Shown one piece after another: positions 1,330 to 20,083 of a DNA stretch of 21,231 bases. A program made the translations under genes and the position numbers. Within the stretch, counting starts at the first letter, position 1. The number at the start of each line of letters is the position of its first letter. A model generated the notes under the pieces. It saw only the letters and a list, made by a program, of their open reading frames with translations, was not told the DNA's origin and ran no database searches. Source of the DNA: a virus. The stretch lies in IMG/VR virus record IMGVR_UViG_3300031565_004159, positions 1 to 21,231 of that record. One strand, written 5' to 3'.

Positions 1330-4300
1330 TTATCCTAGCCCTGCCCTGGCCCACATCTGGATCGGCGACTGTGCAAAGCTGGGCTGCCCCATCGCCTGCG
1401 CCCACATACCGACGGGTGAGAAGCCTGGGGTTGTGCCCATCGAGGCGTATTCCCCCAGCATCTCCAATTCCTCTCCAGATACGTCGCCAAAGTATCGGGA
1501 CAGAAGTGGGTGCATAGCCCAAAAGTACCGCCGTTCTGGGTTGCGCAACTTTGCTGCCATCCGGCCATAGTACGTGCCTTCAGGGTCTTGCTGCGCGTAG
1601 ACGGCCCAGGTCACTTCGCTGTCAATATAGGGGTTGGCTCTCCTCAGCGACCTGTGCTTGCGTATCGCCGTGTTAGCCATGTCAGCCTGTTCGTCGGTCA
1701 AGCCTATGTACTGCGGAATGGCCATGTACTGGCGGTACAACTCAAGGGCCTGGACGTACTCAGGGTTGCGCCGTCTGTTGATGTACTCCATCGCCTCCGC
1801 CACAACCTCTGGCGGATAGTACCGCTTCACCTCTTCTCTGCGGCGCACCACGTCACCCGCATCCACCAGCCCCGTGTCTGGGTCACGGACAGCATCGGGC
1901 ACGCCGTAGTACGCATCCATGAAAAGATCGGTCAGATTCTCCGGCTCAGGTGGCGCACCCTTCTTGCCCTGTGCTTCCCACCTTTCCTGTTCCGTGATGG
2001 GCAGGTCCTTGTACCTCGCGGTAGCCTTGAGCTGCTTGGGCACCATAGCCATCAGCATCTCTTGTGCCTGCAACCGCTCGCGGTATTCGTTTCCCGTAAG
2101 TTGTCCGCTCTTCATGGCCGCATTCAACTGCTCTATCTCGGTCTCCATAGGCTTCCGTTGCTGCTCAACCTCCTGCCAGAAGATAGAGCTTTCGTAGCCA
2201 CGCTGCACCCCAACTTCCCGTGCTCGCTCCGTTCGTTTCTGTAGAAGCGGATATGCGCCTCGCAATCCCTCCTGTTTGGCTCGGCTCAGTTCCGTCCAGG
2301 TCTGGCCGTAGACCTCCTGGGCTAGTTCCTCTTCGAGTTCATGTTGTCGTTCCCAAGGAGAAAGACCCCAAACTCGTAGTCCCGCCAACTGTCCTGGCAG
2401 ACCTTCCCATCCTGGGTTCTCCTCTTGCATCAGGTACTCTTCGAGCCAGAAGGGAAGGAGCCGACTGCCAACGTGGGCGAGAACTTGCGTTGGCGTCTCC
2501 AGGGGTTCGCCCAGCCACGTCCTTTTGGTCGCCAAGTCCCAGGCCAGAGCAGGAGCTGGAGCGATGCGGCTACGAAACCACCTCAAGAATGGATTGGCGC
2601 TGCCACTCAGACTCACAAAACCCTCTGGATTCTCCGTAGCCGTCTCGTATATCTCGCCCATCAGTCGCACCAGGGATGTCCAGATGGAACCAGGCCCCAC
2701 ATGCGCATCGCCTACCTTCACGGTCATAAACTTGCCCTGTTCGGGGTCTAAGTTCGGCTCTTGGCCCAGCAGTTTGGAGACAGCGATGTGTAATGCCAGG
2801 CCCCCCATTGCCAACGACGCCAGCGTTCGCAGGGCCTCGCCCGCCTTCCATCGGCTAGCCTGGTAGACGCGGTCGGCTTCTTCCTCGGCTGCCGCTCGCT
2901 CTTCCTCCGATGCACCAGCAGCCAGCGGTTCTGGTTTGGGCTTGCAGAAACCCGCCATATCGAGTATGAGTGCTCCCGCTGCTCTGGTGTATCGCGGCGA
3001 ATAGAAGAGTACACCGCTCTCCCCTGCCCTCTGCGTCGGACTCACGCCCAGGCCCCTGGTGGAGAGCGTGCCCGTCATGTGGTTGATGAGTTCGCCCAAT
3101 TCCGGTAGGGCGTTAGCACGCTCGGCAGTCCTGTGCATGGCCTTCCAGAACTCAACCCGTGCCACTAATCCCCACGCATTGAACGATGTCCCAAATCGGC
3201 CAAAGACCTGTTGCGTTACGATCTTGGGCAGAACCCGCGTCAGCAACCCTCCCTGCTCCAGAGACTCATAGAACTCGCTTGGCCCTATGTCCACCCGATG
3301 AGCCAGCATCTCCTTGAGAGTATCGTAGTTGGCTACAAGGTAGCGTTCGAGGGTCTGCGGATGCACAAACGCCTGAAAGTGGGTCAGTGTCGCCTTTGCC
3401 CAGACCTTCGGATTGCGGGCCAGCATAGGCAGTCCGTGTATCATTGGAGCCGAAAAGTCCATGGCGGTGCCCAGGGTGCGAACGGCTCCCGAAACAGACC
3501 CTGTAGCTCTCAAGAAGGCGTTGGTCTGGGGCCTCAAAGCCTGCTCTACCTTGTCCGTCACCTCGATCGGGAATATCCGCCCAGAGAAGGCGGGATGCCA
3601 GATGTATCCCTCGACCCCTGCCCTTGCCGTTGCCGCTCGCTCCCTGGCTTTGGCATGGGCGAGCTTCGCTGAGGCAAGGTCTGCGTTCACCCTGGTCAAC
3701 TCACCCTGTAGTCGTAGCTCTAAGGGATGACGGGGCCATGTCTGAAACACCTCACGACCAGTCGGAACGGCCATCTCTCGAATCTCCGACTGGGCCGCAC
3801 GGAACTCCTCAGCAAGATCGGGTCTGATTGCGGCAATGGCCCGAATCGAAGCGTCAGGGACATCCTCCCCACGACGCGTGCGCTTGATGAGTTGGTCAAG
3901 TCTGGTCAGTGCCCGCTTCCCCAGGATAGCCTTCTCCCGCGCTATCCTAATCGGGGTTGGGATGCGCTCGGTGATGGTCTCACCTAGTGGCTTGACTATC
4001 CTAGCAAGACGTAGATCGTTCATGGCCTTGTACCCTGAGTCAAGGTAGAGGCCAACTATCTGCTCCAAATCGCCAGCGTAGGTCACTCCCTTCTGGATAC
4101 CCTCTTCCATCGTCTCGTAGAAACGCGCTCTCTGAAATGGCTGCTTCTTGCCTACCCTGCCACCAACGACCCTCGCCCTAATCTCCTTCTCGGCTCCAGC
4201 CACAGCCTCCACAAACCGAGGGAAGTATTCGCCGCCTTCTGGGATGCCGAGTTCCCTAAATGGCACGCCCTCTGCCTTCAATAGTGCCGACATCTCACGC

Positions 4301-7300
4301 ACTATGCGCCGCGCCAGCTTGACCTTCTGTCTTTGCGCCTCTGTCATCTCATAATGATGCGGCCACTGTAGCACGTCGCCTATCGCCAAGCCGTATTCAG
4401 GACTCAAGGGGGTGATCCCAATGGCCCGTGCCTGTTTGTCTGTGCGGATGTCTTTGCCCACGACCCGCAACTGGGCAAGTGCTAATCGCTTTGCGGACTG
4501 GGCCGCGTCCTCAGTGACGTGGTAGGAGATGAGTGCCTGGCTCAAGGGGTCTTCGGCCAACGCCGCCGGACTCACCCAACGCGTTACTCGCTCCAGAGCC
4601 TTGCCCTTCTGTGCTGCCCGTTGCGCAAAGCGGCGCATGGCGTCGGGCCGGAACATCTGCCCAGCTATGGTGTCATAGTCAGGAAGGGGGACAACAATCT
4701 GTCCTGGTTCCTGTGGTGGCAGGGGCACAACGGACTCGCCAGGCTGAACTGTATCCGGTGGCAAGCCCTCTCCCGCTGCTACTGGTTCTGCCTCCTCTGC
4801 TTCTGGTGGCCCAACTGGTGGCTCTTCTGGCGGAACCGCTGGCGGAGCTGCTGCCGCAGGTGTAACTGCCTCTGGCACTGCTACTTCTGGAACCGCCTCG
4901 GCGGGAGCCACTGGTGCAGGCGTCAGCACCCCCGCTAGTTGCTGGACGGCTTGCTGTAGCTGGGCTACGGCTTGAGCTACGGGAGTGGTAGGCGCGGCCT
5001 CGACTGGCGGTGCCTGGGGCAGTTCTGTCACTCGGCCTTGTCTTACAGCATCTAGCACCTCCTGACCTGTCATGGTGCTAGGTGCCTCATACGAGACACC
5101 TTCTATCTCAAGGCGGTCATAACCCGTTTCGGGTCGTGAGGAAACAGGCCGCGTAAGTTCTTTCACACCACGACGCTGAGCCTCAAGGCTGTCGTCTAGC
5201 ATCTTCTCCAGGAAGAATCTGTCCGTCGGGTTAGTGCTGCGACTGATTTGTGCCCGCAAGCTAGCTATCTCGTCAGTGACCTGCACGCGCTCCATCGGGG
5301 TTCGCCTAACACGGGCCTCTACTGGCATTGCCTCTGCGATAGGCGGTGCCGCCTCTGGCGCAACCGGCGCGGGTAGGAGGGCCGGTACAAGTGGCCGAGC
5401 TTCAGAACGCAGGAAACGCTGTAGCATATACCTAGCATCTTCAGGGTCAGGGAAGCGAGCACCAGCCGCTCTAATAGCCGCCTCTGAAACAACGCCTGTG
5501 TCCCATCCCCTTTCCTGCACAAACTGGAAGGCATATCGCATCTGCGCATAAGCTATGCGTTCCGGCTGTGCCATCGCCGTAGGGTCGAGGGTCTCTGGCA
5601 ATTGGGTCAGGACACGCCCCAGAGAGCGCCCTAAAGCCTGCGGGGAATCGAAGTCCAACAATCCAAGTGCATCCCTGTAGTCTTCGACCTCGTCAAGCGT
5701 GTATCCCACTTCGGTCAGACCGAACAAGCGTTGACGTTGTGCTTCAGTAAGACCAGCTTCCATGCGCTCAATTTGCGCATCGGCTTCCTCAACAGCCTCG
5801 CGGCTAGCCGTGGCGCTGTTAGCACGTCGCTGAAGGGCTGCATAGCGCCTTGCTCCTTCCGCACCAAAGATGCGGGCTTCAACGTCAACCTCCGCGTGCT
5901 TAGCCAGCGTAGCAGCTTCTTCCAATTCTATGGGATTCATCTCCCAGAGCGGTTTGGGGGCCGCCTCTGGCGCAACCGCTGGGACTTCCGCAGCAGGCGG
6001 CACTACGGCTGCGGGTTCTACAGTTGGAGCTAGTCTCCAACGGTTCCCGCCCAGACTTTCCGCGCCCAACATCCTCAGAATATCCGGCTGGTTCACCAAG
6101 TAGTCGCGTGTCCCCACTTTGATTCGCGCCTGTGCTGGAATCCACACTCCCTCTGGATTTGCAGCCAGCAACTCCCGCAATCGCTCGGTGGCGATCCGCC
6201 CTGCTTCCTGCTGGGGACGGGGCTTTGGCACGGGCTTTACTGGGAGTACCGCACCCTCTCGATGGCGGGCCAGTATGTCTCGCAGAAAGTCCACCGAAGG
6301 AAGGGTAACACGGTCATAATGAATAGGCATCAGGATAGCAGCGGGAGTTCCCTCGCGGTAGAGAACCACGGGATTATTGGGTTCTGTTCCCTTTACCTGG
6401 TCAAAGTGAGTCAGGGTATAGATAAGACCTAGCCGCTTGGGGTCCAAACCTATCAACTGACCATCATCAAAGGCGAATGCTGCGGTCAATTCCTGGCCCT
6501 CTGGTGTTATCTGGCCCAAGGGTTCTAGGGGCTGGTTGGCCTCTGAGACGAGGCGGTCAAACAGCTTCTTCCCTACATCCTGCGCTCTTGGCTCTCCTCG
6601 GCCTTTTGCTAGGCGGACTCGAATCTGGTCTAGGAGTTTGATTGCACGGGCTTGCTCACTATCGAGTATCATAAAGCCGTCGGCAAGAAAACGGCCACGC
6701 TCCAGAATCATCCCCTCCCACGCCCCGACTGAGCCACGTGGCAGTTTCTCAGGAGGTTGCCAACTCTCCTGAAGTTTCTGAAGATGCTCCGCCTCCCGTT
6801 CTCTCTCGGCTTCTCTGCGGCTAGCGAGCGAGGTCTTCATGCCTTCCAAACGTATGTTTGCGGCGTTCAAGAAGACTGCGCCTTGCTTTCTCGCGTGCTT
6901 CACCAACTCGGCAGAACCGCCCAGGTCTGCAATGACAGCAGCTCTTTCGTCAGCATTCACTGCTGCTTGCCGTAGCCGAGCGATGGAAGCATCCCCTTGT
7001 CCCTCCGAGGCGACGATTTTCTCTAGTCGGCTACCCCAGGCGTGCCAATCTTCGTATACACCTAATTCTTCCAATAGCGCAGGTGCATACGGAACACGGA
7101 CATAAGGCCACATCCTACTGAGGACATCTGACAAGCTATCTGTTGTCTTGGGCTTGGCTAGATTAAGCGGGCCTTCTAAGACCTCACGCAGAAGAGCGGC
7201 ATCTATCGGCTGATCCCCCCGCTGTTTGCGTACCTCATTTAGAGCATCTTCAATCCCCTTGAGAGCTATCTCTTCTTCGGGGTAATCCAGCCTGTCTTTC

Positions 7301-10300
7301 ATGGTTGAGCGGACACGCTCTATACTCCCACGATAGACTGGTTCCATAGCTTCTATAGAGACTTCGGGCAGTTCTGGTGGCTCCTCTAGTTCCCCATACC
7401 GTGCCCGTAAGCCCGTCTCCTCCTCCTCTGCCAGTTCTATCTCTCGCTGCTCCCGCTGAATCTCCTCCGTCATTGCGTCCGCGGCGGCTGTCTCTGGCCA
7501 CTCCTCAACCCAAGGCTGTAGCTCCTCTGGTGCGGGGGCCTCTGGTGCTACCTCCGCCCTCGGCGTGAATGTCACCGTTGCCGACGGAACATCGTTAGTG
7601 TATGAGCCGATGATGGCCAACGTGCCCCTGTCGCTCTCGTAAGTAACCTCCTGGCCCTCCTGAGTGGCCTCGCCCCGTTTGGCCATCTGCCTCAGCAGTC
7701 GGTACGCCTCAAACTCCGCGCTCTCCCCAGTCCTGCGCCAACTGCGCTTCCCCGTCTCCTCGGCCTTGTCCAGAAGAGCAGAGAGTGTCGGCGGTATCTC
7801 GGCGGGCAGTTCGGGGGCTAGTGGCGCGGCCTCCGCGACAGGCGGCGTGGGCACTGGCTCCGGCACTACTGCCTCCCCGTACTTCTCCGCCAGCTCGGGG
7901 TACTCGGCTAGGACTTCGGGGCGAAGGGACTCGCCCTCGGAGAGAGCACGTTCTGTCCTTGCGAACCTACCTTCTGGCCCGCCAAGTGGCGCAATCCCCA
8001 ATCTCTCAGCCCAATTGTCCAGCGTGTTATCGGGAATCGTCAGCCAGTCCGCTACTCCAGCTCTCCTCCCGCCGTATACTTCGGCCACGCCGCTCTTCGC
8101 TCTCATTTGGGCAGGATTGGTCAGTCTTATTTGCCTCTCGTGGCTACCAATAAGGTACTCTTTGCCACGTGTTATGTCTTCCTGCACGGCACTGACGATA
8201 ACTTCTACGTGTCGACCTCGCGTCATCTCCCACGGCTCTTTGGCCGCCGGGGGCGCGGACGGCCCAGCGGGGACTGCCTCGGCGGGCATCTCAAACTCCA
8301 TCGGCTCGGCTGGGTCGTAGGGCGTGCGCTTGGCCCCCTGTAGGGCTTCTCGCAGGTTCCCCCCTGCTCGCTCTAGGGCGTCAAAGCTGGTTTCGTAGAC
8401 GGTCTTCTCGCTCGCCACGTCGATGTAGATGCTGGCCCCTGCCTTTGCCGTGCGAGCGTCTTGCGCCAGGCCCATCTCTACGATCCGCAGCTTGTCATCC
8501 GATGTGTCCCATACTTCCCAGAGGCCCTTGGCCTTCCAGCGAAGCCAGCCCTTCTTCAGCAAGCCGTTGACGACAGCTTCGTTCGATGCCTCCGTAAGCT
8601 CTAGCTCTTCTCTGGTGACGTAGCCTGCATCTATGGCCGCCTGCCAATGCACCGGCAGTCCACTTGGGGCCGACGGCTTGAAAGGCGTGCCGTCTGGCAG
8701 CATCATGGGGCTGGTCTCGCCCTGGGGCAAAAGCTCTATACCGCCCTGCCGCAGGTTGTTCTTCACCCATTCGAGTTCGGTTGGGGAGGTGCGCCCTGGG
8801 CGAGCGACCTCTGGCGCAACAGGCTCTGCGGGGGCCACGCCATAGCGTTCGGCTAGACCGGGGAGCTCGGGGTGCTCTTCGAGCACCTTTTCAGACAGTA
8901 CCTCCCCGCGCTGGATCGCGTCTCTAACTCGGACTAAGTAATCAGCTCTCAGTCCTCGTTCACGAGCATCGTTCCACGTTTCCGCAGCCCATGGCTGATT
9001 GCGCATGTAGGCAGCCCTGAACTCATCATAGGACATATCCTGGGGGCGCATCGGGCTTGGTACTTCCGCCTTCCCCGGCACTAGCTCCTCGGGTACTACC
9101 GCACCAACCTCGCCCCTGAGCACATCGCCCAGGAAGCCGTGGCCGAGGTCTTTCATGCGCTGCGCTATGCGCTCCAAAGCCCCACCCAGGCCGCCTTGCT
9201 CTGCGTTGTACTGCGCGATGTCCTGCGGGCTAGTGCTCACCCGGTAGGTCTCGCCGAGACCTTCTGCCACCTCTCTCTGCACGTCAGCGGGGATAGCTCC
9301 AATCGCCGGGGGCACTGCTGGCTCAACCCCTTCTGGGGCGACTCCACCGCTCCACTTCCTGAGCAGCTGTCCCAGCCAGTTGAGTTGGGGGTCAATATAC
9401 TCAATGGCACGCATGGCTGCCGCCTGCCGCAAGGTCGCTTGCTCTATGGCACCATTAGCTCCAGCCATCATGCGGCCCGACCATTGTGGGTCTACGTCTT
9501 CGGGCCATGGTTCTCCATAGAAGACGGCACGACCAACTGTCCGCACCTGCTCTGGGCCTCCGGGGAAGTCCTTGGCGACTTTACCTACCTGCGTCAGATA
9601 CTCGTCATAGGCGGCATCGCGGGGGTCACGGCCAGCAATGCGATAGGCCCAGCGAAACTTGTCCGTTATCTCCAACTGCTTGGCAATGGAAGCACCAGCG
9701 GCGAACAGGCCCTGAGTCACTGCCACTTGGAGCAGCTCTTCAGGTGAAGCGGTAGCAGCGTAGAGAGTGTACGCGGCTCGCCTGGCGATGGTGACAGGGG
9801 CACCTGCTGGGGTCCCCGACAGTGCTATGGCAGCGATGGTCAAAGGATCAGCTACAATCCCAGAGAAGAATTGCCAAGCGGGATTCGCCTTTTGCTGTAT
9901 CTGCGTGTACTTCTCCCAGGTCTCCCTGACTTGATGCGGTATCTCGCTGGGGTCTTTTAGGGCATCGAGAGGATGCAGAAAGGCTAGAGGCCCCATTGCT
10001 CCGAACAACGACATCCTTGTGGCGAACTCTTCCTGGGGTATCTGCCCTGTCGCCGCACCCCAAGTTGCCCCCATAACAGGCTGGCCTAGTGCCCGATAGG
10101 GCGTCCCCAAGACCTGGTGCGCTACATCCAGAACCTTTTGCGTCACAGGCTGGGCTGCTGCCATCTGCGCCCAGGGTTGTGCGGGGCCTCCGGTTGTCGG
10201 GAACGGCCCAACCTGCACCGTTGGCTGCTGTGCCCATTCCCGCATTCGCGCAGTGTATTCGGCCTGCACTTGCTCTGGCGTTGTCACGCCACCGAGCATC

Positions 10301-10602
10301 CTGGCCCCTATCTCTGCCGTACCCAGTATCGGTTCAAGGACCCTTCGATAACTCGGCACCTGCTCGCGAAACTGCTGCAACGCTTGGGGTGCCTGCTGCT
10401 GGATGTTCTGCCAGAGCTGAGAGGCCCAAGGGGGAACTTGCAGGCCGCCGGGTTGTGCTGGCTGCGGCATAGGCGCAGGCTGTGGTGTTGGCGCAATGGT
10501 AGGCTGCGGCGGTGCGTAGGCAGGCTGTGGCTGAAGCGTCGGCCCCCCACGCCGCTGGCGATCTCTATGCTCTTCCTCTGACTCCCATTGATACCATTTC
10601 AT
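1330..10602 (-). CDS. Giant modular polyvalent or internal virion protein (3090 aa, LPD38-like C-terminal region)
   Basis: One uninterrupted frame of 3090 codons, starting at an ATG whose first bases overlap the stop of the upstream HNH gene (ATGA, 10599-10602) and ending in TAA at 1330. Residues 1-55 are Pro/Gln-rich. Residues 240-310 form an Ala-rich hydrophobic stretch. Several modules follow, separated by Pro/Ala/Glu linkers (about 585-605, 772-790, 909-940, 1013-1035, 1525-1552, 1738-1765 and the long 1862-1976). Two modules end in a related motif (VLSEKVLEEHPELPGLAERYG-type at about 568-588; LRPEVLAEYPELAEKYG at about 893-909). I associate this motif with phage polyvalent proteins. The region at about 1980-2750, including MTGTLSTRGLGVSPTQRAGE (2509-2528), SPRYTRAAGA (2535-2544), a hydrophobic stretch near 2590-2612 and GQEPNLDP (2613-2620), looks like the large polyvalent protein LPD38 type. 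Residues 2285-2325 may be coiled coil. I infer a protein packaged in the capsid and ejected with DNA. No enzymatic motif is certain. Confidence 0.8.
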   Translation of the reverse strand: MKWYQWESEEEHRDRQRRGGPTLQPQPAYAPPQPTIAPTPQPAPMPQPAQPGGLQVPPWASQLWQNIQQQAPQALQQFREQVPSYRRVLEPILGTAEIGARMLGGVTTPEQVQAEYTARMREWAQQPTVQVGPFPTTGGPAQPWAQMAAAQPVTQKVLDVAHQVLGTPYRALGQPVMGATWGAATGQIPQEEFATRMSLFGAMGPLAFLHPLDALKDPSEIPHQVRETWEKYTQIQQKANPAWQFFSGIVADPLTIAAIALSGTPAGAPVTIARRAAYTLYAATASPEELLQVAVTQGLFAAGASIAKQLEITDKFRWAYRIAGRDPRDAAYDEYLTQVGKVAKDFPGGPEQVRTVGRAVFYGEPWPEDVDPQWSGRMMAGANGAIEQATLRQAAAMRAIEYIDPQLNWLGQLLRKWSGGVAPEGVEPAVPPAIGAIPADVQREVAEGLGETYRVSTSPQDIAQYNAEQGGLGGALERIAQRMKDLGHGFLGDVLRGEVGAVVPEELVPGKAEVPSPMRPQDMSYDEFRAAYMRNQPWAAETWNDARERGLRADYLVRVRDAIQRGEVLSEKVLEEHPELPGLAERYGVAPAEPVAPEVARPGRTSPTELEWVKNNLRQGGIELLPQGETSPMMLPDGTPFKPSAPSGLPVHWQAAIDAGYVTREELELTEASNEAVVNGLLKKGWLRWKAKGLWEVWDTSDDKLRIVEMGLAQDARTAKAGASIYIDVASEKTVYETSFDALERAGGNLREALQGAKRTPYDPAEPMEFEMPAEAVPAGPSAPPAAKEPWEMTRGRHVEVIVSAVQEDITRGKEYLIGSHERQIRLTNPAQMRAKSGVAEVYGGRRAGVADWLTIPDNTLDNWAERLGIAPLGGPEGRFARTERALSEGESLRPEVLAEYPELAEKYGEAVVPEPVPTPPVAEAAPLAPELPAEIPPTLSALLDKAEETGKRSWRRTGESAEFEAYRLLRQMAKRGEATQEGQEVTYESDRGTLAIIGSYTNDVPSATVTFTPRAEVAPEAPAPEELQPWVEEWPETAAADAMTEEIQREQREIELAEEEETGLRARYGELEEPPELPEVSIEAMEPVYRGSIERVRSTMKDRLDYPEEEIALKGIEDALNEVRKQRGDQPIDAALLREVLEGPLNLAKPKTTDSLSDVLSRMWPYVRVPYAPALLEELGVYEDWHAWGSRLEKIVASEGQGDASIARLRQAAVNADERAAVIADLGGSAELVKHARKQGAVFLNAANIRLEGMKTSLASRREAEREREAEHLQKLQESWQPPEKLPRGSVGAWEGMILERGRFLADGFMILDSEQARAIKLLDQIRVRLAKGRGEPRAQDVGKKLFDRLVSEANQPLEPLGQITPEGQELTAAFAFDDGQLIGLDPKRLGLIYTLTHFDQVKGTEPNNPVVLYREGTPAAILMPIHYDRVTLPSVDFLRDILARHREGAVLPVKPVPKPRPQQEAGRIATERLRELLAANPEGVWIPAQARIKVGTRDYLVNQPDILRMLGAESLGGNRWRLAPTVEPAAVVPPAAEVPAVAPEAAPKPLWEMNPIELEEAATLAKHAEVDVEARIFGAEGARRYAALQRRANSATASREAVEEADAQIERMEAGLTEAQRQRLFGLTEVGYTLDEVEDYRDALGLLDFDSPQALGRSLGRVLTQLPETLDPTAMAQPERIAYAQMRYAFQFVQERGWDTGVVSEAAIRAAGARFPDPEDARYMLQRFLRSEARPLVPALLPAPVAPEAAPPIAEAMPVEARVRRTPMERVQVTDEIASLRAQISRSTNPTDRFFLEKMLDDSLEAQRRGVKELTRPVSSRPETGYDRLEIEGVSYEAPSTMTGQEVLDAVRQGRVTELPQAPPVEAAPTTPVAQAVAQLQQAVQQLAGVLTPAPVAPAEAVPEVAVPEAVTPAAAAPPAVPPEEPPVGPPEAEEAEPVAAGEGLPPDTVQPGESVVPLPPQEPGQIVVPLPDYDTIAGQMFRPDAMRRFAQRAAQKGKALERVTRWVSPAALAEDPLSQALISYHVTEDAAQSAKRLALAQLRVVGKDIRTDKQARAIGITPLSPEYGLAIGDVLQWPHHYEMTEAQRQKVKLARRIVREMSALLKAEGVPFRELGIPEGGEYFPRFVEAVAGAEKEIRARVVGGRVGKKQPFQRARFYETMEEGIQKGVTYAGDLEQIVGLYLDSGYKAMNDLRLARIVKPLGETITERIPTPIRIAREKAILGKRALTRLDQLIKRTRRGEDVPDASIRAIAAIRPDLAEEFRAAQSEIREMAVPTGREVFQTWPRHPLELRLQGELTRVNADLASAKLAHAKARERAATARAGVEGYIWHPAFSGRIFPIEVTDKVEQALRPQTNAFLRATGSVSGAVRTLGTAMDFSAPMIHGLPMLARNPKVWAKATLTHFQAFVHPQTLERYLVANYDTLKEMLAHRVDIGPSEFYESLEQGGLLTRVLPKIVTQQVFGRFGTSFNAWGLVARVEFWKAMHRTAERANALPELGELINHMTGTLSTRGLGVSPTQRAGESGVLFYSPRYTRAAGALILDMAGFCKPKPEPLAAGASEEERAAAEEEADRVYQASRWKAGEALRTLASLAMGGLALHIAVSKLLGQEPNLDPEQGKFMTVKVGDAHVGPGSIWTSLVRLMGEIYETATENPEGFVSLSGSANPFLRWFRSRIAPAPALAWDLATKRTWLGEPLETPTQVLAHVGSRLLPFWLEEYLMQEENPGWEGLPGQLAGLRVWGLSPWERQHELEEELAQEVYGQTWTELSRAKQEGLRGAYPLLQKRTERAREVGVQRGYESSIFWQEVEQQRKPMETEIEQLNAAMKSGQLTGNEYRERLQAQEMLMAMVPKQLKATARYKDLPITEQERWEAQGKKGAPPEPENLTDLFMDAYYGVPDAVRDPDTGLVDAGDVVRRREEVKRYYPPEVVAEAMEYINRRRNPEYVQALELYRQYMAIPQYIGLTDEQADMANTAIRKHRSLRRANPYIDSEVTWAVYAQQDPEGTYYGRMAAKLRNPERRYFWAMHPLLSRYFGDVSGEELEMLGEYASMGTTPGFSPVGMWAQAMGQPSFAQSPIQMWARAGLG
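4675..5019 (-). repeat. Long Pro/Ala/Glu low-complexity linker inside the giant gene
   Basis: This stretch encodes residues about 1862-1976, dominated by Pro, Ala, Glu and Val in reiterated PAPVAP, VPEVAVPEAV and PPEEPPVGPP blocks. It separates the N-terminal chain of small modules from the LPD38-like C-terminal third. Shorter linkers of the same kind occur elsewhere in the gene. Two of them share an exact 19-nt DNA repeat at 5348-5366 and 5960-5978 coding for the VAPEAA core. Confidence 0.7.
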
Positions 10603-11330
10603 TGGGCTGTCTCTACACTCCCTATGTATGCCTCAATGTTGGAGATGGCATCTGGTAAGACAAACGCCGCACCACGACCAGTCAGCCACTCAGCAAGAGG
10701 TGTGCTGGTTTTACTCAAGTTACACCGCTTGCAGGCCGGCACTATGTTCTGCGCCACATAGCCGCCACCAGCGGCCAGAGCCACAATGTGCTCTTGATGC
10801 AGAGGAACATCACCGACACCACAGTAGGCACACCGATTCTCGAAAAAGGACAAAGTGCTTTCCCACTCAGCAATAGTAAGCGTGGCAGACAACTCAGCCT
10901 TTCTCGCGCGTCGCTTGTTCTCGCTCCGTAAGTGGATTGTGCGCCCATTGTCCGTCTGACGATACTGCTGTCCGTAAGCTCGTAGCTCGTCTACATGTTC
11001 CTCCCGATACTTGCGCGTTTGTGCTTGGCACTCCTCCTTGTGCTGGTAGTAGTATTCTAGGCTGCGCGCATTCACTTCCTCTTTATGAGCATGCCGATAC
11101 TCCCTTGCCCCTGCACGAAGTTCCTCTCCATGAGCCTCGTAGTAAGCACGCTGGCGTACTCGGCACTCGTCTAGGTGCGCCTCCCGCCACTTCCGTTCTG
11201 ATGCTCGAACTCTCTCTGGATGTTCTCTACGATACCTCTCCATATAAAGTAGGCGCTGTTCTCTGTGCTCCTGATACCACTTCTGGTTGTAGAGCCGCCG
11301 CTTTTCCCTTGTCGTTGTGTCAGTTGGCAT
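10599..11330 (-). CDS. HNH homing-type endonuclease with seven 15-residue helical repeats (copy 1)
   Basis: A 243-aa protein, ATG at 11328-11330, starting 6 nt after the stop of the 510-aa gene and overlapping the giant gene start by 4 nt. Residues 17-121 are seven gap-free 15-residue repeats of the form (K/R/E/A)-(W/Y)-R-x-x-H-x-E-E-x-R-A-x-x-R. After QTDNGR comes a TLTIAEW element. The HNH nuclease follows: zinc cysteines C167-x2-C170 and C200-x2-C203, catalytic-type H181 in QEHIVAL, N195 in NIVPAC and N204 in RCNLSK. HNH proteins nick or cut DNA using a bound metal, and phage versions often act as free-standing homing endonucleases. The C-terminal GRGAAFVLPDA segment is shared with the other two HNH genes here. 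It sits between two virion-type genes with almost no spacer, as an inserted selfish gene would. All catalytic positions are present, so it is probably active. Confidence 0.9.
   Translation of the reverse strand: MPTDTTTREKRRLYNQKWYQEHREQRLLYMERYRREHPERVRASERKWREAHLDECRVRQRAYYEAHGEELRAGAREYRHAHKEEVNARSLEYYYQHKEECQAQTRKYREEHVDELRAYGQQYRQTDNGRTIHLRSENKRRARKAELSATLTIAEWESTLSFFENRCAYCGVGDVPLHQEHIVALAAGGGYVAQNIVPACKRCNLSKTSTPLAEWLTGRGAAFVLPDAISNIEAYIGSVETAQ
10968..11282 (-). repeat. Seven tandem 45-bp units encoding 15-residue repeats in HNH copy 1
   Basis: The codons for residues 17-121 align in register every 15 residues, each unit starting with an (any)-(W/Y) pair and carrying a His at position 6 and acidic residues at 8-9 (EHREQ, EHPER, AHLDE, AHGEE, AHKEE, QHKEE, EHVDE). 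An eighth, degenerate unit begins with QYRQTDNGR. DNA copies have diverged, so the repeat is visible mainly at protein level. It likely forms a long charged helix contacting DNA. Confidence 0.85.
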
Positions 11331-11336
11331 GAATCG

Positions 11337-12869
11337 TTATCCACCCCATTGCGAGATGCCCGTGATAGGGCCACCAGTCGCCCAGCTCTGACTCATAGCA
11401 TTCATCCAGTCAGGCCAATATCCTCCGTACCCGCCAATGGCCTGTGGTGACTCTACGAGGCCCTGGAGCATCGCTTGCTGAGAGGGCTCCATACCGTACC
11501 ACTCTGCTGGTTGCATCTGCTGGGGCAGTAGGTACTGCTGTCCCCAGGTCGGTGCTGCTGGCCCCCCAAACTCCACGCCTTCAGCCTGCGGAGCCACGTA
11601 CTCCTGTCCTTGTTGCTGCATCAAAGCCTGCTGCCAAGCAGGAAGTGGCCCCGCTCCCAGGGCGCTCTGCAATGCCGAATACTGTAGCCAGTTCTCTGGA
11701 CCTCGTTGAGTGGCAAGAAGCCCCAACTCCTCCATGCGCTGCTGGTGAGCCTGCTGTTGTGCACCCAATGCAGTCTCCACCCCCCACTGGTAGCCACCCC
11801 GCTCAAACTGTTGTACGGCAAGGTTGTGGGTCTGCTGGAACTCATAGGCTGCTTGCTCGCCCAGGCCCGCCAGCCTCAGTTGCTCCGTCTCAAACTGGCT
11901 CTGTGCCTGGTCAGCCGCGTAGTAGGAGAGGGTCATCTGCTCATTGAACTGGCGGGTGGCCTCCTCGTCCAGCCCCACCTCCCTGGCAAAGCTCTCGTTC
12001 CAGCGCCGCTTGTCTTCTTCGGTTGCATCCTTCAGTTGCTCTTGACCCGCCTCCCAGCGCCGCACATCCTCATCGTCTAGGCCCTGAGCGCGGAGATAGT
12101 TCCTGTTTGACTCTATCACGCTTTGGTCGTACTGGTCGCGGTTGAGCTTTATGCTCTCCTGAATCTGGTTTATTTGTGCCTCGGTGAGACCTTGGTCAAG
12201 CAGGAACTGCTTATCCCACTGCTCAAGTCCCTTCTCGTATGCCTCTCGCGCTAGCGTCTTCTCCTTCTCTGGCCATCGCCCCCAGGGCGTGACCGTGCCC
12301 TCTGGCACCTCACCCGTGGCCTTTGCGCCCCAGTCTTCACGATCCCCAAAAGGCTCCATCATTCCGTGGCTGATGGCGAACTCGATAGGAGACAGGACCT
12401 TTGTGTTGACGTATGTAAGCCCTGTGAGTTCGTCCGTCCACTCTCTCCCCTCCCTTAGCTCGCCAGTCTCCTCTAGCCAATGCTGCATGTACTTCGTCAC
12501 CGACCAGTTGGGATACTTCTCTGCATGTTGAGCTTGCAGCTTTGGTTTAGCCTCATAGATCGCCTGTAGCGCGTCAGCGTTGGTAGGCGGCGTAGTCGTC
12601 GGCTGAACGTACCCAGTGGCGAGTTGGGCCTGTTGACCTAGACCAGCCGCTTGCGTCAGCGCATCGAGAAGCTGTTGTATCCAGGCATAGCCGCCATAGA
12701 CTTCGCCCCCGGTAGTCGCTGGCGCAGCCTGAGAAGTGGGGGTTGTCGTGGGCTGCACATAGCTCGCGGCCTGTGGCGTAGGAGCAGGCGCAGGTGCAGG
12801 CGGGTTCTTGTAAATCACTGACCCGTCTGGCTGAATCTCATAGTAGTTGCCTGAAACGTCATAAGGCAT
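11337..12869 (-). CDS. Gln-rich probable internal virion protein with 36-residue tandem repeats (510 aa)
   Basis: The start ATG at 12867-12869 lies 3 nt after the TAG of the previous gene, with a GGAGGG ribosome site. Residues 1-20 are Tyr-containing (MPYDVSGNYYEIQPDGSVIY). Residues 22-100 are Pro/Thr/Ala-rich and carry two copies of YVQPTTTP (37-44 and 87-94). Residues 100-215 look globular. Residues 218-361 form four gap-free 36-residue repeats whose Gly-Leu pairs fall at 227, 263, 299 and 335; a degenerate fifth unit follows. The C-terminus (360-510) is rich in Gln, Gly, Tyr and Trp. I recognise no enzyme motif and no transmembrane segment. Its position after the portal and before the giant protein, and its composition, suggest a packaged internal, scaffold-like or ejection protein; that is inference only. 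Confidence 0.75.
   Translation of the reverse strand: MPYDVSGNYYEIQPDGSVIYKNPPAPAPAPTPQAASYVQPTTTPTSQAAPATTGGEVYGGYAWIQQLLDALTQAAGLGQQAQLATGYVQPTTTPPTNADALQAIYEAKPKLQAQHAEKYPNWSVTKYMQHWLEETGELREGREWTDELTGLTYVNTKVLSPIEFAISHGMMEPFGDREDWGAKATGEVPEGTVTPWGRWPEKEKTLAREAYEKGLEQWDKQFLLDQGLTEAQINQIQESIKLNRDQYDQSVIESNRNYLRAQGLDDEDVRRWEAGQEQLKDATEEDKRRWNESFAREVGLDEEATRQFNEQMTLSYYAADQAQSQFETEQLRLAGLGEQAAYEFQQTHNLAVQQFERGGYQWGVETALGAQQQAHQQRMEELGLLATQRGPENWLQYSALQSALGAGPLPAWQQALMQQQGQEYVAPQAEGVEFGGPAAPTWGQQYLLPQQMQPAEWYGMEPSQQAMLQGLVESPQAIGGYGGYWPDWMNAMSQSWATGGPITGISQWGG
11787..12218 (-). repeat. Four exact-length 36-residue (108-bp) helical repeats
   Basis: Residues 218-361 of the 510-aa protein split into four units of exactly 36 residues without any gap. 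Each has an aromatic or hydrophobic residue near position 5, then (L/E/A)xxGL(T/D/G)(E/D) at positions 7-13 (LDQGLTE, RAQGLDDED, REVGLDEE, RLAGLGEQ), then a Gln/Arg-rich helix. Units 1 and 3 begin with Trp, unit 4 with Phe, and a broken fifth unit again begins with Trp (residue 362). The perfect spacing points to duplication followed by sequence drift under length constraint. Confidence 0.75.
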
Positions 12870-12872
12870 CGT

Positions 12873-13736
12873 CTACCCTCCGCCGAACTTCGCTATCGCG
12901 TCCGCGATCCACGACTCCATCTCTTTCCTACTCGGTGCAGGAGTCGGGGCAAGCACCTGCGGCGTGTATCTCGCGCCCCCCATCCTCGCCAGCGCACTTG
13001 CCGCGCCCCCTGGCTCAAACCCCGGAGCGAACATCGTCCCCTTGGGCAACGCGTATGGCATCCCCTGCGCCCAAGTTTGAGCCTGCATCTGTGCTATCCC
13101 CTGTCCAATCCCCGCCCCCATCTCGCGCTTCCTCTGGGCCAACTGCGCGGCCTCTGCCTGGCGTTGGGCCTCCATCTGTGCCCACTGAATCGCTTGTGAG
13201 GCTGCGGCTTGCTGAGAGGATTGAGCCAGCGTTTGCTGCTGGTACGCCTGGGTTGCCCCCATCTGCTCTCTCAAACGCAACTCTTGTATCCGATTGAAGG
13301 CCATCATCTCCTGCTGATACTCGGACATAGGCTCCTGTAGACCTGGCTCCAATCCCAACTGGCGTCTATACATAGTCCACAGGTCTTCCTTGGGCACGCC
13401 AGGAGCCATCGTCTGAAGCTGCCGCGTCATCTGGCTCTGGGCCTGTTGCTGCTGCGCCCAGTCTTGTATCTGTCGTGCTACTCCTGGCTGTACGGTGGGC
13501 ATCTGGCCCGTAGCCCGTAGCGCCCAGGGGTCCATTACGCCTCTGCCCGAAGCCGGGGCCACGGGGGGCAGCGTGCCACCTGTGGGCAACGTCCCGCCAC
13601 CAAACAGCGGCGAGATAGCCGCAGGCCCTGCCGTCGGCCGCCTGAGCGGAACCGTCGGCTGAGGCGTTGGACCCGCTCCCTGGGGATACATGTTCCGAAG
13701 CCATTGCTGTAGTACGGCACTATTCAACTGTGGCAT
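12873..13736 (-). CDS. Gln/Ala/Pro-rich probable virion or scaffold-like protein (287 aa)
   Basis: ATG at 13734-13736 lies inside the end of the previous gene (17-nt overlap) and has an AAGGAG ribosome site 7 nt upstream, which fixes the start. Residues 1-20 are a likely helix (MPQLNSAVLQQWLRNMYPQG). Residues 20-70 are Pro/Gly-rich. Residues 88-220 are a long Gln/Ala/Met/Arg-rich helical region with coiled-coil character (QQQQAQSQ, AQRQAEAAQLAQRKRE). The C-terminus (230-287) is Pro/Gly-rich and ends in a short amphipathic helix and FGGG. I do not recognise a family. The helical Gln-rich character and its place behind the portal would suit a scaffold, internal or neck protein, but no motif proves this. 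Confidence 0.7.
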   Translation of the reverse strand: MPQLNSAVLQQWLRNMYPQGAGPTPQPTVPLRRPTAGPAAISPLFGGGTLPTGGTLPPVAPASGRGVMDPWALRATGQMPTVQPGVARQIQDWAQQQQAQSQMTRQLQTMAPGVPKEDLWTMYRRQLGLEPGLQEPMSEYQQEMMAFNRIQELRLREQMGATQAYQQQTLAQSSQQAAASQAIQWAQMEAQRQAEAAQLAQRKREMGAGIGQGIAQMQAQTWAQGMPYALPKGTMFAPGFEPGGAASALARMGGARYTPQVLAPTPAPSRKEMESWIADAIAKFGGG

Positions 13737-14471: not shown

Positions 14472-14723
14472 CTAACTAGACTTCCGAAGCCGTATAGTCC
14501 CACCCACTGGCCCCGCTCCTAGCCCTTGCGGTATGACGAGATTGACGCCCCCTGGTAGGGAGTAATGTTCCCTAGCGCGCACATAAGCCTCTAGGACATC
14601 ACCCCATGTGTATGCTCCGCTCCGATGCCCACAAGCGAGCAGGTATTCCTGGAACTCTCCCAGGAAATCAAGCTCCTCTACGCCCATCTCCACCACGACT
14701 CTACTGTTGTCAGTTAGACTCAT
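14472..14723 (-). CDS. Small protein of unknown function directly after the portal (83 aa)
   Basis: ATG at 14721-14723 overlaps the portal stop (ATGA) and is served by a strong AGGAGG site located in the last portal codons, spaced 8 nt from the ATG. The product begins MSLTDNSRVVVEMGVEELDF and includes GEFQEYLLACGHRSGAYTWG (residues 22-41) and a Gly-rich, basic end (GLGAGPVGGTIRLRKSS). The mixed helix-beta character suggests a small folded domain, but I recognise no family. The tight coupling to the portal suggests co-production with the packaging machinery. Confidence 0.75.
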   Translation of the reverse strand: MSLTDNSRVVVEMGVEELDFLGEFQEYLLACGHRSGAYTWGDVLEAYVRAREHYSLPGGVNLVIPQGLGAGPVGGTIRLRKSS

Positions 14724-16912
14724 TCTGCCCCCCTCCTTCTTGTCCCCGGTGCCCTGCCCGTCGCAATTCCTGATGGCCTAACGACTGGCCCCACTCTCGG
14801 CGGCGCGGGTGCTGCTTGTACCCCCGGAGCTGCCATCACAGCCGTTCCCTGTGGCATCCCCTGCGGTTGCGGCGCTCCCTGTTGTTGGCCACCCATAACC
14901 TGTTGGAGCAACATCTGCACAAGCGTCTCAAGCGGGATCCCTTTCTGCTGTGCATAGGCTATGAGTTGCTGTAGGAGCACCTGCGGCTGTACGCCGAGTT
15001 TTTGAGCTAACATCTGAATAGCCTGCATCAGTTGCGGGCTAAGCTGTGGTGTTGCCTGCGCCCCTTGTCCTGGGACGCCCCCTAACGGCTGGGCTGTCTG
15101 CTGCGGAGCCACTCCAATCCCCTGCGCCCCTTGCCCCAGAGCTGTCCCCATGCCCTGCGCCACCTGGCCCGCCGGGGCCATTCCGATCCCTTCCGCCGTC
15201 TGACCCGCCGGGGCCACGGCGTTGAGTTGCCCCGTGATGAACTGCTGGAAACTGGGAGCTAGCTCTGGATACGCGCCTTGGAGCTTGCTCATGCCCAAGC
15301 CCCCCTGGGCCAGCTTCAGGCCAGCACGCTTCACCGCTTCTGCCGCCATGAACTGCGCGACCTCTGGCCGAGCACGCCAGCCGTCCCTCAGAATCTCACG
15401 CATCTCCTCGTCGGGCTGCTCAATGCCAATCATCTCCATCCCGCTTGACCGGCTTCTCAGCCCACCGCGAACTTCGTTGAGTGCCTGACTACTACGCGCA
15501 TAGGTGTCCGTAGGCATGAGCGGGTTGAGGCTGACCTTTACCTGTCGGTAGCCCTTGAGGTCATCGGGGCCAAGGCTGATCCAACCTCCAGTCTTGCCAT
15601 AGGAATAGACGTGGAGCACCTGTTTGAGCTGGTACTCGATAATGTCATACAGGCAGCATATCTGCGACTCAAGTGCCCGTTCAGCGTGAGCCACGATGGG
15701 CTTGTAGCGCATCCGGGCTGCCGCGATGAGCTGGTTGATGGCGTAGCCGCTGTCTCCCTTACTCTGCCCGTACATCGAGTCGGCGAGACCAGCCCGCTCT
15801 ATCATGTTGGTCACGAGCTGTATCATCTCGTCAGCGTCGGGGCCGTTCCCTTGCCAGGTCAGGAAGCCTATGTCCTCATTCTCGTAGAGCGTCACCATCT
15901 TGCCAGGCGTTATCTCTATCTCGCGCGGAACCGACGTGCCGTCAGGGTTTAGTACCTGCTGTATGAGCTGCTTGAAGATGACTGTCGGCCAGCACCACAT
16001 GCGCACCGCGCTGGCTTTCTGCGAGAGCACGCGGTCTAGGTAGGGAATTAGGTGCCTGACAGGGTACAACACGGAGAGGGCCATATACTTCGGGTCTCGT
16101 GAAGCCGTGGACAGACCCAACGCATAGGCGTAGGGAGGTGTACCATATCTATGCTTGGTGTGATGAACCACCTGGCCCTCGACGGCATAGGTCAGACTAT
16201 CGGGAGTCCACCACTGCTGGAACGTGACCGAGCTACCCGTCTTGCCCTTGCTGCGACTCAGGCGCTCCAGGTCGGGCTTCTCCGCGTTCCACTTCTGCCT
16301 CTGAGAGTCCAGGGTCAACACTTGCCGCTCATCTACCTCCAGGATACCGTACAGGCCATAGTCGCCCCACATCGGGTACACTGTCTGGGGATCACAGTAG
16401 GTCCAGGCTATCGGAAGGGGCTTGCCGCGCTTCCACTCTTCAGCGCGCTGGCTGTAGTCGGCCTCGGGTTCCTGGCCTTTGCGGTTGCGGCGAGGGAATC
16501 CACCCCAGAGTTGGGCGGCGTAGAGCATCCGCAGGCACCCATGTCCATCGGCGATCAGCGTCTCCACGAACTTGTCTACTACGTCCTCATCGCCCTGTTT
16601 CTCCAGTTGGTTGACAGCAGCTAGAGCAAACTTCTCCATCACAGAGGACTGCTCCTGTGCTTTTGCTTGCTCGCTGCCGGGCGGCACGCTGATGGTTAGT
16701 GGGTCTGCGGTGAGCGTGCCGACCATGCGCTCGACGATTTGATGCGCAATTGGGCTTTTGACGATCTCGGTCTCCATGCCAACGGGTACGTCGATGGCCG
16801 TCTCCATGAACCTGAGCTGTCTCATCTCGTCGATCATCAGATCGCGTTCCGCCCACTCGGACTGGAGATCGTCCTGGATCGCCTGGATGTTTGGGTATTC
16901 GTCAGACGCCAT
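14720..16912 (-). CDS. Portal protein (730 aa)
   Basis: The portal is the dodecameric ring at the capsid vertex through which DNA enters and leaves, and to which terminase docks. I start at the ATG at 16910-16912 because AGGAG lies 9 nt upstream; a TTG 33 nt further up sits in the tail of a terminator. Supporting features, numbered from this ATG: an N-terminal helical part with FMETAIDVPVG (35-45) and IAHQIVERMVGTLTADPLTI (55-74); a wing-like region rich in Trp, Tyr and Pro (150-260); VRHLIPYLDRVLSQKASAVR (285-304), a helix typical of portal crown-stem regions; and MIERAGLADSMYGQ (370-383). These resemble P22-type or DUF4055-type portals. Residues 567-730 form a Gln/Gly/Ala/Pro-rich tail with repeats. 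The family call is from overall pattern and from its position soon after terminase, not from a unique catalytic motif. Confidence 0.8.
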   Translation of the reverse strand: MASDEYPNIQAIQDDLQSEWAERDLMIDEMRQLRFMETAIDVPVGMETEIVKSPIAHQIVERMVGTLTADPLTISVPPGSEQAKAQEQSSVMEKFALAAVNQLEKQGDEDVVDKFVETLIADGHGCLRMLYAAQLWGGFPRRNRKGQEPEADYSQRAEEWKRGKPLPIAWTYCDPQTVYPMWGDYGLYGILEVDERQVLTLDSQRQKWNAEKPDLERLSRSKGKTGSSVTFQQWWTPDSLTYAVEGQVVHHTKHRYGTPPYAYALGLSTASRDPKYMALSVLYPVRHLIPYLDRVLSQKASAVRMWCWPTVIFKQLIQQVLNPDGTSVPREIEITPGKMVTLYENEDIGFLTWQGNGPDADEMIQLVTNMIERAGLADSMYGQSKGDSGYAINQLIAAARMRYKPIVAHAERALESQICCLYDIIEYQLKQVLHVYSYGKTGGWISLGPDDLKGYRQVKVSLNPLMPTDTYARSSQALNEVRGGLRSRSSGMEMIGIEQPDEEMREILRDGWRARPEVAQFMAAEAVKRAGLKLAQGGLGMSKLQGAYPELAPSFQQFITGQLNAVAPAGQTAEGIGMAPAGQVAQGMGTALGQGAQGIGVAPQQTAQPLGGVPGQGAQATPQLSPQLMQAIQMLAQKLGVQPQVLLQQLIAYAQQKGIPLETLVQMLLQQVMGGQQQGAPQPQGMPQGTAVMAAPGVQAAPAPPRVGPVVRPSGIATGRAPGTRRRGAE
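15041..15214 (-). repeat. About 12-residue Gly/Gln/Ala repeats in the portal C-terminal tail
   Basis: Four to five copies of a unit like APAGQ-x-A-(E/Q)-G-(I/M)-G-(M/T/V) run through portal residues 567-624 (APAGQTAEGIGM, APAGQVAQGMGT, ALGQGAQGIGV, APQQTAQPLGGV). The DNA copies still show identity: the 13-mer CCCGCCGGGGCCA occurs in both of the first two units. The tail continues Gln-rich and probably helical to about residue 680, then Pro/Arg-rich to the end. Confidence 0.75.
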
Positions 16913-16921
16913 CAGCCTGTT

Positions 16922-16926
16922 CTCCT
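16922..16926 (-). promoter_or_regulatory. Ribosome binding site fixing the portal start
   Basis: The minus strand reads AGGAG here, followed by 9 nt and the ATG at 16910-16912. The more upstream TTG at 16943-16945 has no suitably spaced site and lies at the end of the terminator U-tract. Confidence 0.75.
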
Positions 16927-16943
16927 GCTGATTCTGTTGAGCC

Positions 16944-16975
16944 AAAAGAAAAGCCCGCTCCCCACGGCGGGCCTT
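16944..16975 (-). terminator. Intrinsic terminator upstream of the portal gene
   Basis: On the minus strand AAGGCCCGC (16967-16975) pairs with GCGGGCTTT (16950-16958) to give a 9-bp stem with a single G-U pair and an 8-nt loop, immediately followed by TTTTCTTTT. This is a textbook rho-independent terminator in the direction of transcription. It lies after the GIY-YIG gene and only about 30 nt before the portal ATG. The rest of the gap, 16976-17055, holds no gene and no promoter I would defend. The structure either limits readthrough into the structural genes or acts as an attenuator. Confidence 0.85.
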
Positions 16976-17055: not shown

Positions 17056-17589
17056 TCACGCGTTGCTTACTCTCGCAAAATCGTTGCCTCGCATCCTCTC
17101 ACTCAGTGCTTGCCTGCGTTCAGGAGTCCACGCCTTACTCATTTTCGCGCGTGTCTCGTTGCTGAACTGCTTTCCGTAGTTAGGCCCAATGCACCCCTGG
17201 AGTGCCCTGCTAATTTTCGCGCGTGTCTCTACACTGGGATGTTTCCCCCTACGTGCCTCGCTCATCTTCTCACGCGTCTCTAAGGATCGCCGAACCCCGA
17301 GCGGGCTTCTTGCGATAGGGTGAATGTTGTATTCTGGCCTCAGAGTGTCGAGATAATGTTGCTCGCGTAGGACAAGTTGCGTAGAATCCTCAACATGCTC
17401 CAGGATAGAGAGTACAAATGCTGACTCGCCATATTTGTCAAAGGCGTGCTGCAGGCGCTGATTGTGGTGCCGCCCATGACGAAGGTCGCAAACATGCTGC
17501 CACCATCTTTGCGGAGCGTTTGCAGAGCTACCGACGTAGGACTTCCCGTTCATCTCATTCTTGATCTGATAGATGCCGCTATCCGTCAT
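17056..17589 (-). CDS. GIY-YIG homing-type endonuclease with NUMOD3 repeats (177 aa)
   Basis: The nuclease domain fills residues 1-95: GIY at 5-7, YVG at 18-20 (GKSYVGSS), the catalytic-type Arg at 28 in PQRWWQH, the metal-binding Glu at 76 in LREQHYLD, and the YNI motif at 87-89. Residues 100-168 carry three NUMOD3-type helical DNA-binding units (TREKMSEARRGKHP, TRAKISRALQG, TRAKMSKAW with a further ALSERMRG). This is the layout of phage SegA-like, I-TevI-like mobile endonucleases, which make a site-specific nick or break and spread into phages lacking the gene. ATG at 17587-17589 lies 9 nt after the 53-aa gene, with a weak ribosome site. The key residues I can place are intact. It is free-standing; I see no group I intron around it. 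It is followed by a terminator. Confidence 0.92.
   Translation of the reverse strand: MTDSGIYQIKNEMNGKSYVGSSANAPQRWWQHVCDLRHGRHHNQRLQHAFDKYGESAFVLSILEHVEDSTQLVLREQHYLDTLRPEYNIHPIARSPLGVRRSLETREKMSEARRGKHPSVETRAKISRALQGCIGPNYGKQFSNETRAKMSKAWTPERRQALSERMRGNDFARVSNA
17141..17229 (-). repeat. Direct 17-nt DNA repeats within the NUMOD3 units
   Basis: ATTTTCGCGCGTGTCTC occurs at 17141-17157 and again exactly at 17213-17229; a diverged third copy lies near 17267-17282. They encode the (E)TRAK(M/I)S cores of the NUMOD3 units, so the module was amplified by duplication. Confidence 0.8.
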
Positions 17590-17598
17590 AGTACGTGC

Positions 17599-17760
17599 TC
17601 ATTTGACTCTCTTCTCCAGTGGACCCTCAAAGCCGAACCCCCACCTCTTTGCGAGCGCATCGAGCACGATCCACAGTGCTCTCCATACCTCGCGCGCAAA
17701 CTCCAGGTCGCGCCTACGGGTTTCGTCCTCGCGCTTGCGGGCCTCCTCCACGTCAGCCAT
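17599..17760 (-). CDS. Small charged protein (53 aa), unknown function
   Basis: A frame of 54 codons runs from the ATG at 17758-17760 to the TGA at 17599-17601. The ATG overlaps the stop of the upstream HNH gene as TGATG, typical of translational coupling. The product starts MADVEEARKREDETRRRDLE, a highly charged helix, continues with an amphipathic stretch rich in Trp and Leu (VWRALWIVLDALAKRWGFGF, residues 25-44) and ends GPLEKRVK. The Trp/Leu segment could be a membrane-surface or protein-contact helix but is too interrupted for a confident transmembrane span. It fills an otherwise empty 170-nt space exactly. I recognise no family. It may be the original phage gene at a site where the HNH and GIY-YIG genes have inserted. 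Confidence 0.6.
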   Translation of the reverse strand: MADVEEARKREDETRRRDLEFAREVWRALWIVLDALAKRWGFGFEGPLEKRVK

Positions 17761-19656: not shown

Positions 19657-20083
19657 CACTGGCAGAAACAATCTCCTCTATGAGACGCAACCGACCCGAG
19701 ACCTCGGCCTCGATGCGTTGCTTTGGCCTGCCAAGAGTCCGGTCGAGGGACTCCTTTATCGCACTGAGCTTCAGGCGCTTGTCGCGGCTCTGTTTCGCCA
19801 ATCCAAGCAGCCCTTCCAAAAGCTCTGGCACCTTGTCCTGTAGGGCTTCCAGTGCCCGCTCAACCGCGCTACTCTTGTAGTCCATGGCCAGAGCATTGAG
19901 ATGGTCGCGGCGCTCTCTCGGCCAGTAGTCCCAGGTGCGGGGGGCGATGCCCGCTATCTCGCACGCCTCCTTGATCGTGGTCGTTGTGGCCCGTGCCTGG
20001 ACATAGGCCAATTCCCGTTCCTTCAAGTTCCGCAATGCTTCCGTAACCATTCCGCAACCCATCCCTAATCCATCTATAGGCAC
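19616..20083 (-). CDS. terS: Terminase small subunit (155 aa)
   Basis: It would recognise phage DNA and load it on the large subunit. The helix-turn-helix is at residues 34-58 (TTTTIKEACEIAGIAPRTWD then YWPRE). Residues 70-118 are helical oligomerisation-type sequence ending in SLDRTLGRPKQR, a motif I associate with the C-terminal part of many small subunits. It directly precedes and overlaps the large subunit, which supports the call. The longest start is GTG at 20081-20083, directly abutting a TGA (TGAGTG); in-frame ATGs at 20062 and 20050 are possible starts, and none has an ideal ribosome site. The tail (residues 140-155) is Ser/Thr/Pro-rich and lies in the overlap with the large-subunit gene. 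Confidence 0.85.
   Translation of the reverse strand: MPIDGLGMGCGMVTEALRNLKERELAYVQARATTTTIKEACEIAGIAPRTWDYWPRERRDHLNALAMDYKSSAVERALEALQDKVPELLEGLLGLAKQSRDKRLKLSAIKESLDRTLGRPKQRIEAEVSGRLRLIEEIVSASDGHDSGTAPPTTV

Follow-up and report, generated by a model that had tools for sequence, protein, structure and literature searches.

The window analysed here, an IMG/VR virus record of 21,231 bases, carries on its minus strand one unbroken reading frame (1330-10602) that opens with ATG and encodes a protein of 3,090 aa, referred to below as the giant; all window features given here with coordinates lie on that strand. This confirmed the single intact frame of the original prediction and added its orientation. 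The gene starts in a 4-base ATGA overlap with the HNH gene upstream, and its ATG is backed by a homologue, g54 (MKWYQWESEEEHRDRQRR... vs MNFWDWLPKDEYREHQRR...). GC content by codon position (0.69/0.48/0.63, vs 0.66/0.44/0.71 in the portal gene) resembled that of the adjoining genes over the full length of the frame, so the length is not due to chance. The predicted compositional features were also real. Residues 1-60 (10423-10602), an aromatic/acidic start peptide shared with g54 and then a Pro/Gln-rich linker, are 40% P+Q, the linker segments between modules are 53-78% P/A/E, and the last 330 residues contain 8.5% Y/W compared with 4.8% overall.

The giant lies among virion genes, as had been proposed. 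Downstream is a virion structural protein (859-1266; phrog_3758, 3.6e-29). Upstream are two Gln-rich ORFs, putative internal-protein partners, of 510 aa (11337-12869; 12.5% Q) and 287 aa (12873-13736; 15% Q), followed by the portal protein (14720-16945; phrog_64, 9e-5) and the terminase large subunit (18442-19671; Pfam Terminase_6C, 7e-12; phrog_979, 1.6e-62). The same arrangement of portal, 124-, 287- and 510-aa ORFs and giant was found in IMGVR_UViG_3300028837_001486 (57,928 bases; hereafter G054), with identities of 60% for the portal, 63% over 131 aa for the 287-aa ORF and 50% for the 510-aa ORF. In G054, two late ORFs lie after the giant gene, then a scaffold-like ORF and then the major capsid gene (phrog_212, 1.3e-39). 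Downstream of the giant in another phage, L205, there is likewise a scaffold-like ORF with a capsid gene of phrog_212. By synteny with G054, the giant gene therefore sits between portal and scaffold/capsid genes, behind the two Gln-rich ORFs.

Terminase families differ between the window (18442-19671) and L235 (16611-18161), though portal and giant are syntenic, and the G054 terminase likewise belongs to a different family from that of the window. The window terminase shares 58% identity with the terminase of L002, a phage not otherwise related; on this sequence comparison, the packaging module is an exchanged one. Three ORFs for HNH-type endonucleases, related to one another in their C-terminal halves, are inserted between late genes (10599-11330, 17760-18440 and 20544-21230), and the one that overlaps the start of the giant is absent from that site in G054. 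A GIY-YIG endonuclease gene (17056-17589) has three copies in G054, 51-57% identical, at unrelated positions (4071-4655, 7565-8401 and 53541-53999), and these are mobile genes. G054 also encodes an SbcC-like nuclease subunit (4665-7094; phrog_77, 1.7e-43) and, adjoining it, an ORF judged by eye to be SbcD-like (2872-4074).

Searches with the giant returned nothing above cut-off in Pfam and PHROGs (whole protein and piecewise) or in NCBIfam (whole protein). There was no tblastn match in 50,697 phage records and none for the C-terminal 1,116 residues in 72,556 plasmids, and scans of IMG/VR and GTDB for its 8-mer peptides returned no relative. When relatives were sought through peptides of the C-terminus, portal and terminase, those of the terminase alone led to close phages, and the phages found in that way, L002 included, have nothing else in common with the window. 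By the Pfam/PHROGs/NCBIfam, tblastn and 8-mer tests the giant is an orphan. No module matched a known enzyme or nucleic-acid-binding family in the Pfam, PHROGs and NCBIfam scans, and the HExxH metallopeptidase motif is absent from both the giant and g54. An unusual length and no relative in isolate phage collections are what an assembly or annotation artefact of fused or frame-shifted ORFs would also give; the coding signal is continuous, however, and an independent contig encodes a collinear homologue of 2,380 aa whose ends match. This homologue already refutes the artefact reading, which retains practically no probability.

That homologue, g54, is encoded at 27436-34578 of G054, and its C-terminal part was first matched as a motif-bearing locus, L176 (phmmer E 1.9e-67 for residues 2755-3090 of the giant). 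The ends of the two proteins match over about 500 N-terminal and about 720 C-terminal residues, whereas the middle differs. The N-terminal constant block, which has hydrophobic stretches, occupies residues 60-502 (9097-10425; blastp of giant 59-502 vs g54 43-492, 35% identity, 3e-54). Residues 503-787 have no counterpart in g54, a second aligned segment follows (giant 788-1050 vs g54 507-753, 2e-15), and the C-terminal alignment covers giant 2365-3074 and g54 1693-2362 (30% identity, 9e-83). In place of residues ~1086-1863 of the giant, g54 contains a ParB-like domain (g54 residues 866-1033; phrog_1033, 9.6e-14). This suggests, from sequence, that the middle is exchanged between phages while the ends stay fixed; the proposal is drawn from the one pair of giant and g54, since one full-length homologue is known.

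Identity between the pair is unevenly distributed. Windows of at least 72% identity were found only at residues 458-505, 895-935, 1042-1093 and 1864-1901, with 27-45% elsewhere, and these windows adjoin the joints. The first (island 1, 9088-9231; up to 84% in 25-aa windows vs 34% outside) closes the N-terminal block, and that at 895-935 closes the second module copy described below. The other two flank the exchanged segment, with island 2 (7324-7479) bordering the variable middle on the left and island 3 (PVAQAVAQLQQAVQQLAG; 4900-5013) on the right. With the islands defined by protein identity beforehand, silent differences at identical residues were rarer inside them (29/77) than outside (246/403; p=2e-4). 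Either recombination at the joints or selection for the joint peptide would fit this pattern. In island 2 the protein is identical at 25 of 25 residues despite 13 silent changes in the 25 codons, so protein-level constraint is certainly part of the pattern, and recent recombination at the joints was, for the same reason, supported in part.

The modules between the constant ends were examined one by one. Residues 601-783 (8254-8802) are absent from g54 and have no assignment or homologue. For residues 930-1020 (7543-7815), kept in g54, AF2 predicted a compact domain of alpha/beta type with a pLDDT of about 86-92; a weak BamC-like similarity in the PDB was not significant (E 0.16). Within the variable middle, residues 1086-1285 (6748-7347), which g54 lacks in favour of its ParB-like domain, are predicted to be helical and have no assignment by blastp, PHROG or AF2. 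Residues 1286-1455 (6238-6747) recur in one other giant, the 1,775-aa protein of L202 (phmmer E 1.9e-4), and have no PDB or Pfam match; a beta-clamp-like fold suspected by eye found no support in Pfam, the PDB or AF2 and is not claimed. Residues 1456-1530 (6013-6237) form a small fold with a pLDDT of 70-85 in part and no homologue, and the remaining middle, including the modules without assignment at 1549-1865 (5008-5958; no convincing homologue), was poorly predicted. No middle module had a significant PDB match. The statement that modules 600-1530 have no function that can be named thus still holds after Pfam/PHROG, PDB and AF2 searches, while the several anti-host modules that had been envisaged could not be assigned to any middle module by the family scans. 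The giant holds at least two distinct domains that are separable between phages, namely the alpha/beta module, the PEVL module, the module shared with L202 and a C-terminal block.

The PEVL module links the giant to a larger set of proteins. This module, PWxMT...GKPVPPEVLADYPDL, is present twice: copy 1 (...RDAIQRGEVLSEKVLEEHPELPGLAERYG, about 560-590) and copy 2 (EPWEMTR...RALSEGESLRPEVLAEYPELAEKYG, about 789-911) follow one common pattern, which we took to be frequent among the giant proteins of phages. A degenerate DNA pattern supplied by the analyst, G..[VL]..[EK]VL.[DE][YH]P[DE]L, defined the motif set; it matched twice in the window, in none of 100 shuffles, and in at least 120 stretches of IMG/VR. 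Among the matches listed, 116 ORFs contained the motif and 84 of these exceeded 1,000 aa (largest 4,201 aa), selection being by motif alone with size no criterion. A PWxMT-like start lay no more than 220 aa upstream in 65 of the 123 motif copies among the matches listed, and in none in shuffled sequence. Against a profile built from 107 motif copies, copy 2 (residues 788-916, KEPWEMT ... PEVLAEYPEL; 7855-8241) scored 26.8 bits (E 1.6e-10; best of 1,000 shuffles, 9.2; phmmer 1.5e-10). Copy 1 (residues ~517-592; 8827-9054), degenerate and absent from g54, matches the DNA pattern exactly; it scored 7.3 bits, not above the best shuffle (9.2), with a phmmer E of 0.0075, and is weak by itself. A third copy at residue 1551 (PLWEMN) was rejected for want of a convincing homologue. 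No Pfam model for the module was matched in the window protein or six scanned giants, and between its fixed ends the interior is variable, spanning 30-190 aa in IMG/VR loci L105-L224.

A Pfam scan of 21 complete motif giants found that together they carry InPase, RadC, LPD1, LPD5, LPD37, LPD38, ART-PolyVal, SLT and VanY domains, and HExxH was present in 20 of 84 motif giants among the matches listed. As motif giants carry these polyvalent domains, the PWxMT module belongs to the polyvalent class of Iyer et al., and through it the giant shares a domain, as judged by profile, with known polyvalent-type proteins. Among the matches listed, 24 of the 55 motif giants with complete N-termini open with a tandemly duplicated short peptide, and N-terminal self-similarity exceeded that of internal windows (p=5e-8). 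The peptides are often aromatic/acidic (NVFDQFD, WDFTGG, DFDAWDKEI) and phage-specific, for example in L130, L132, L167, L184, L199 and L224, and are a possible virion docking signal. No clear duplicated peptide was found at the N-terminus of the window giant, which has only the start peptide common to g54.

The C-terminus had been predicted to be LPD38-like. LPD38 (PF18857) occurs in other giants with the PEVLADYPDL module (8 of 50 motif-bearing records among the matches listed), but it gave no match above cut-off in the window giant, and profile-profile comparison with eight genuine LPD38 proteins gave a probability of 0.2%. A different recurring block was detected instead. By iterative HMM search, the C-block at residues 2365-2760 (2323-3510) was found in 17 ORFs from about 12 phages. 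These ORFs are mostly giants, and the PEVL motif was the route by which each had been retrieved; hhalign matched the C-block to L143 at 95%. None of ten members matched Pfam or PHROGs; a DUF1707 match in one of the ten (E 0.002-0.005, far below cut-off) was taken as chance. By profile comparison, the C-block is a recurring domain listed by neither Pfam nor PHROGs. Extension of the block upstream to ~1975 had no profile support, and residues 1973-2364 (3511-4686), a predicted part of the C-terminal region, have none beyond g54. Residues 2761-3090 (1333-2322) form a C-terminal extension with 43% identity to g54 (phmmer 1.9e-67) and an all-helical AF2 model. AF2 models were weak overall, with pLDDT values of 59 and 54; the former is that of the C-block (ten sequences), which was modelled as all-helical at modest confidence. 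The C-block model matched nothing in the PDB, and the only proteins that it matched strongly in Foldseek were unnamed phage proteins of large size (prob 1.00, E 5e-8 to 2e-3).

A large, helical protein in a late block could also be the tail tape measure of a long-tailed phage, and Foldseek similarities of low probability (prob below 0.2) and a weak TMP_3 match (E 0.08) point the same way. No tape-measure family matched the giant above cut-off in the Pfam and PHROG scans, however, and tube or tape-measure families were absent among the late G054 proteins scanned. The giant lies between portal and scaffold/capsid genes and not behind tail-tube genes, its interior contains folded alpha/beta modules (AF2), and its middle is replaced rather than scaled. 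A tape-measure role is therefore highly improbable.

The neighbouring Gln-rich ORFs bear on a second alternative. The ejection proteins of T7 (gp14-gp15-gp16) and P22 (gp7-gp20-gp16) comprise two smaller proteins and one large one, encoded in the head-gene block. Among the matches listed, upstream neighbours of 49 motif giants were Gln-rich (0.070 vs 0.038, p=3e-10) and abutted the giant in 42 of the 49 cases. The giant might be a purely mechanical internal protein like T7 gp16 or P22 gp16, forming a trans-envelope DNA conduit with its Gln-rich partners, the middle being a spacer or structural element with no effector activity. This fits the order portal, two Gln-rich ORFs, giant, scaffold and capsid, the helical C-terminal model with its hydrophobic helices, and the finding of no enzyme domain in the window giant. 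The analogy with T7 and P22 is one of layout only: no sequence relation was found, the giant is much larger and has cargo-like modules, and its gene is not placed with respect to the capsid gene as in T7. Moreover, the relative has a ParB-like domain in place of the middle, and enzymes, InPase, ART and RadC among them, occur in giants with the same module. Folded domains swapped in the middle argue against a spacer, which would need no such swap, and we consider a purely mechanical role rather unlikely.

The best explanation, to which we assign a probability of about two in three, is that the giant is a phage-type polyvalent protein, a virion-packaged and ejected chassis with exchangeable effector cargo. 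It builds on the observed modularity, homologue, middle exchange, shared polyvalent module and gene context. Packaging, ejection, action on the host and activity of the middle modules would follow by analogy. From gene order, the giant would be made late, together with the portal, the two Gln-rich proteins and the capsid. Its constant ends (start peptide and residues 60-502; C-block and extension, 2365-3090) would place it inside the virion with its Gln-rich neighbours, a location suggested indirectly by the Gln-rich, abutting upstream neighbours of motif giants. As proposed for polyvalent proteins, it would leave the virion with the DNA and enter the cell, where the middle modules, strung on Pro/Ala/Glu linkers, may act as cargo in the new host. 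The middle would be swapped between phages (~1086-1863 here, a ParB-like domain in the relative), with short, strongly conserved joint peptides bordering the swapped segment.

Phage-type polyvalent proteins are known chiefly through their enzymes. As in that class (Iyer et al. 2017, PMC5512222), the giant has many modules and adjoins virion genes, and its recurrent module is common to proteins with InPase, LPD1/5/37/38, ART-PolyVal, SLT and VanY. Its homologue bears a ParB-like domain, as does DdrB of phage P1 (PMC5512222). The giant differs in that no listed polyvalent domain was recognized in it, in having no zincin-like metallopeptidase (frequent in the class, not universal), and in its constant ends, exchanged middle and a C-terminal block outside the Pfam LPD families. 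With DarB and DdrB of P1 it would share the concept of head-packaged anti-restriction factors. Neither has a sequence match to it, and the DarB dyad of SWI2/SNF2 helicase and adenine methylase had no Pfam, PHROG or NCBIfam counterpart in the giant. Of the original prediction, a modular protein of polyvalent type therefore stands, on the shared module, the replaced middle and virion-gene synteny. The LPD38 label does not stand, and no middle module of the window giant could be assigned an anti-host activity.

Comparison of the giant with g54 shows directly how one middle can take the place of another while the ends stay fixed, which bears on how polyvalent proteins are loaded and traded. The C-block is newly defined and missing from Pfam and PHROGs, and the PWxMT module offers a means of retrieving many more giants from metagenomic data. 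More tentatively, and with the odds somewhat against it, the C-block and a lineage-specific N-terminal docking peptide may package the chain as a modular injection system, with effectors recombining at the joint peptides. If so, block and peptide would form a general delivery tag for varied proteins in many phages, and if the C-block is a packaging/ejection tag, phage injection of non-DNA cargo would become searchable.
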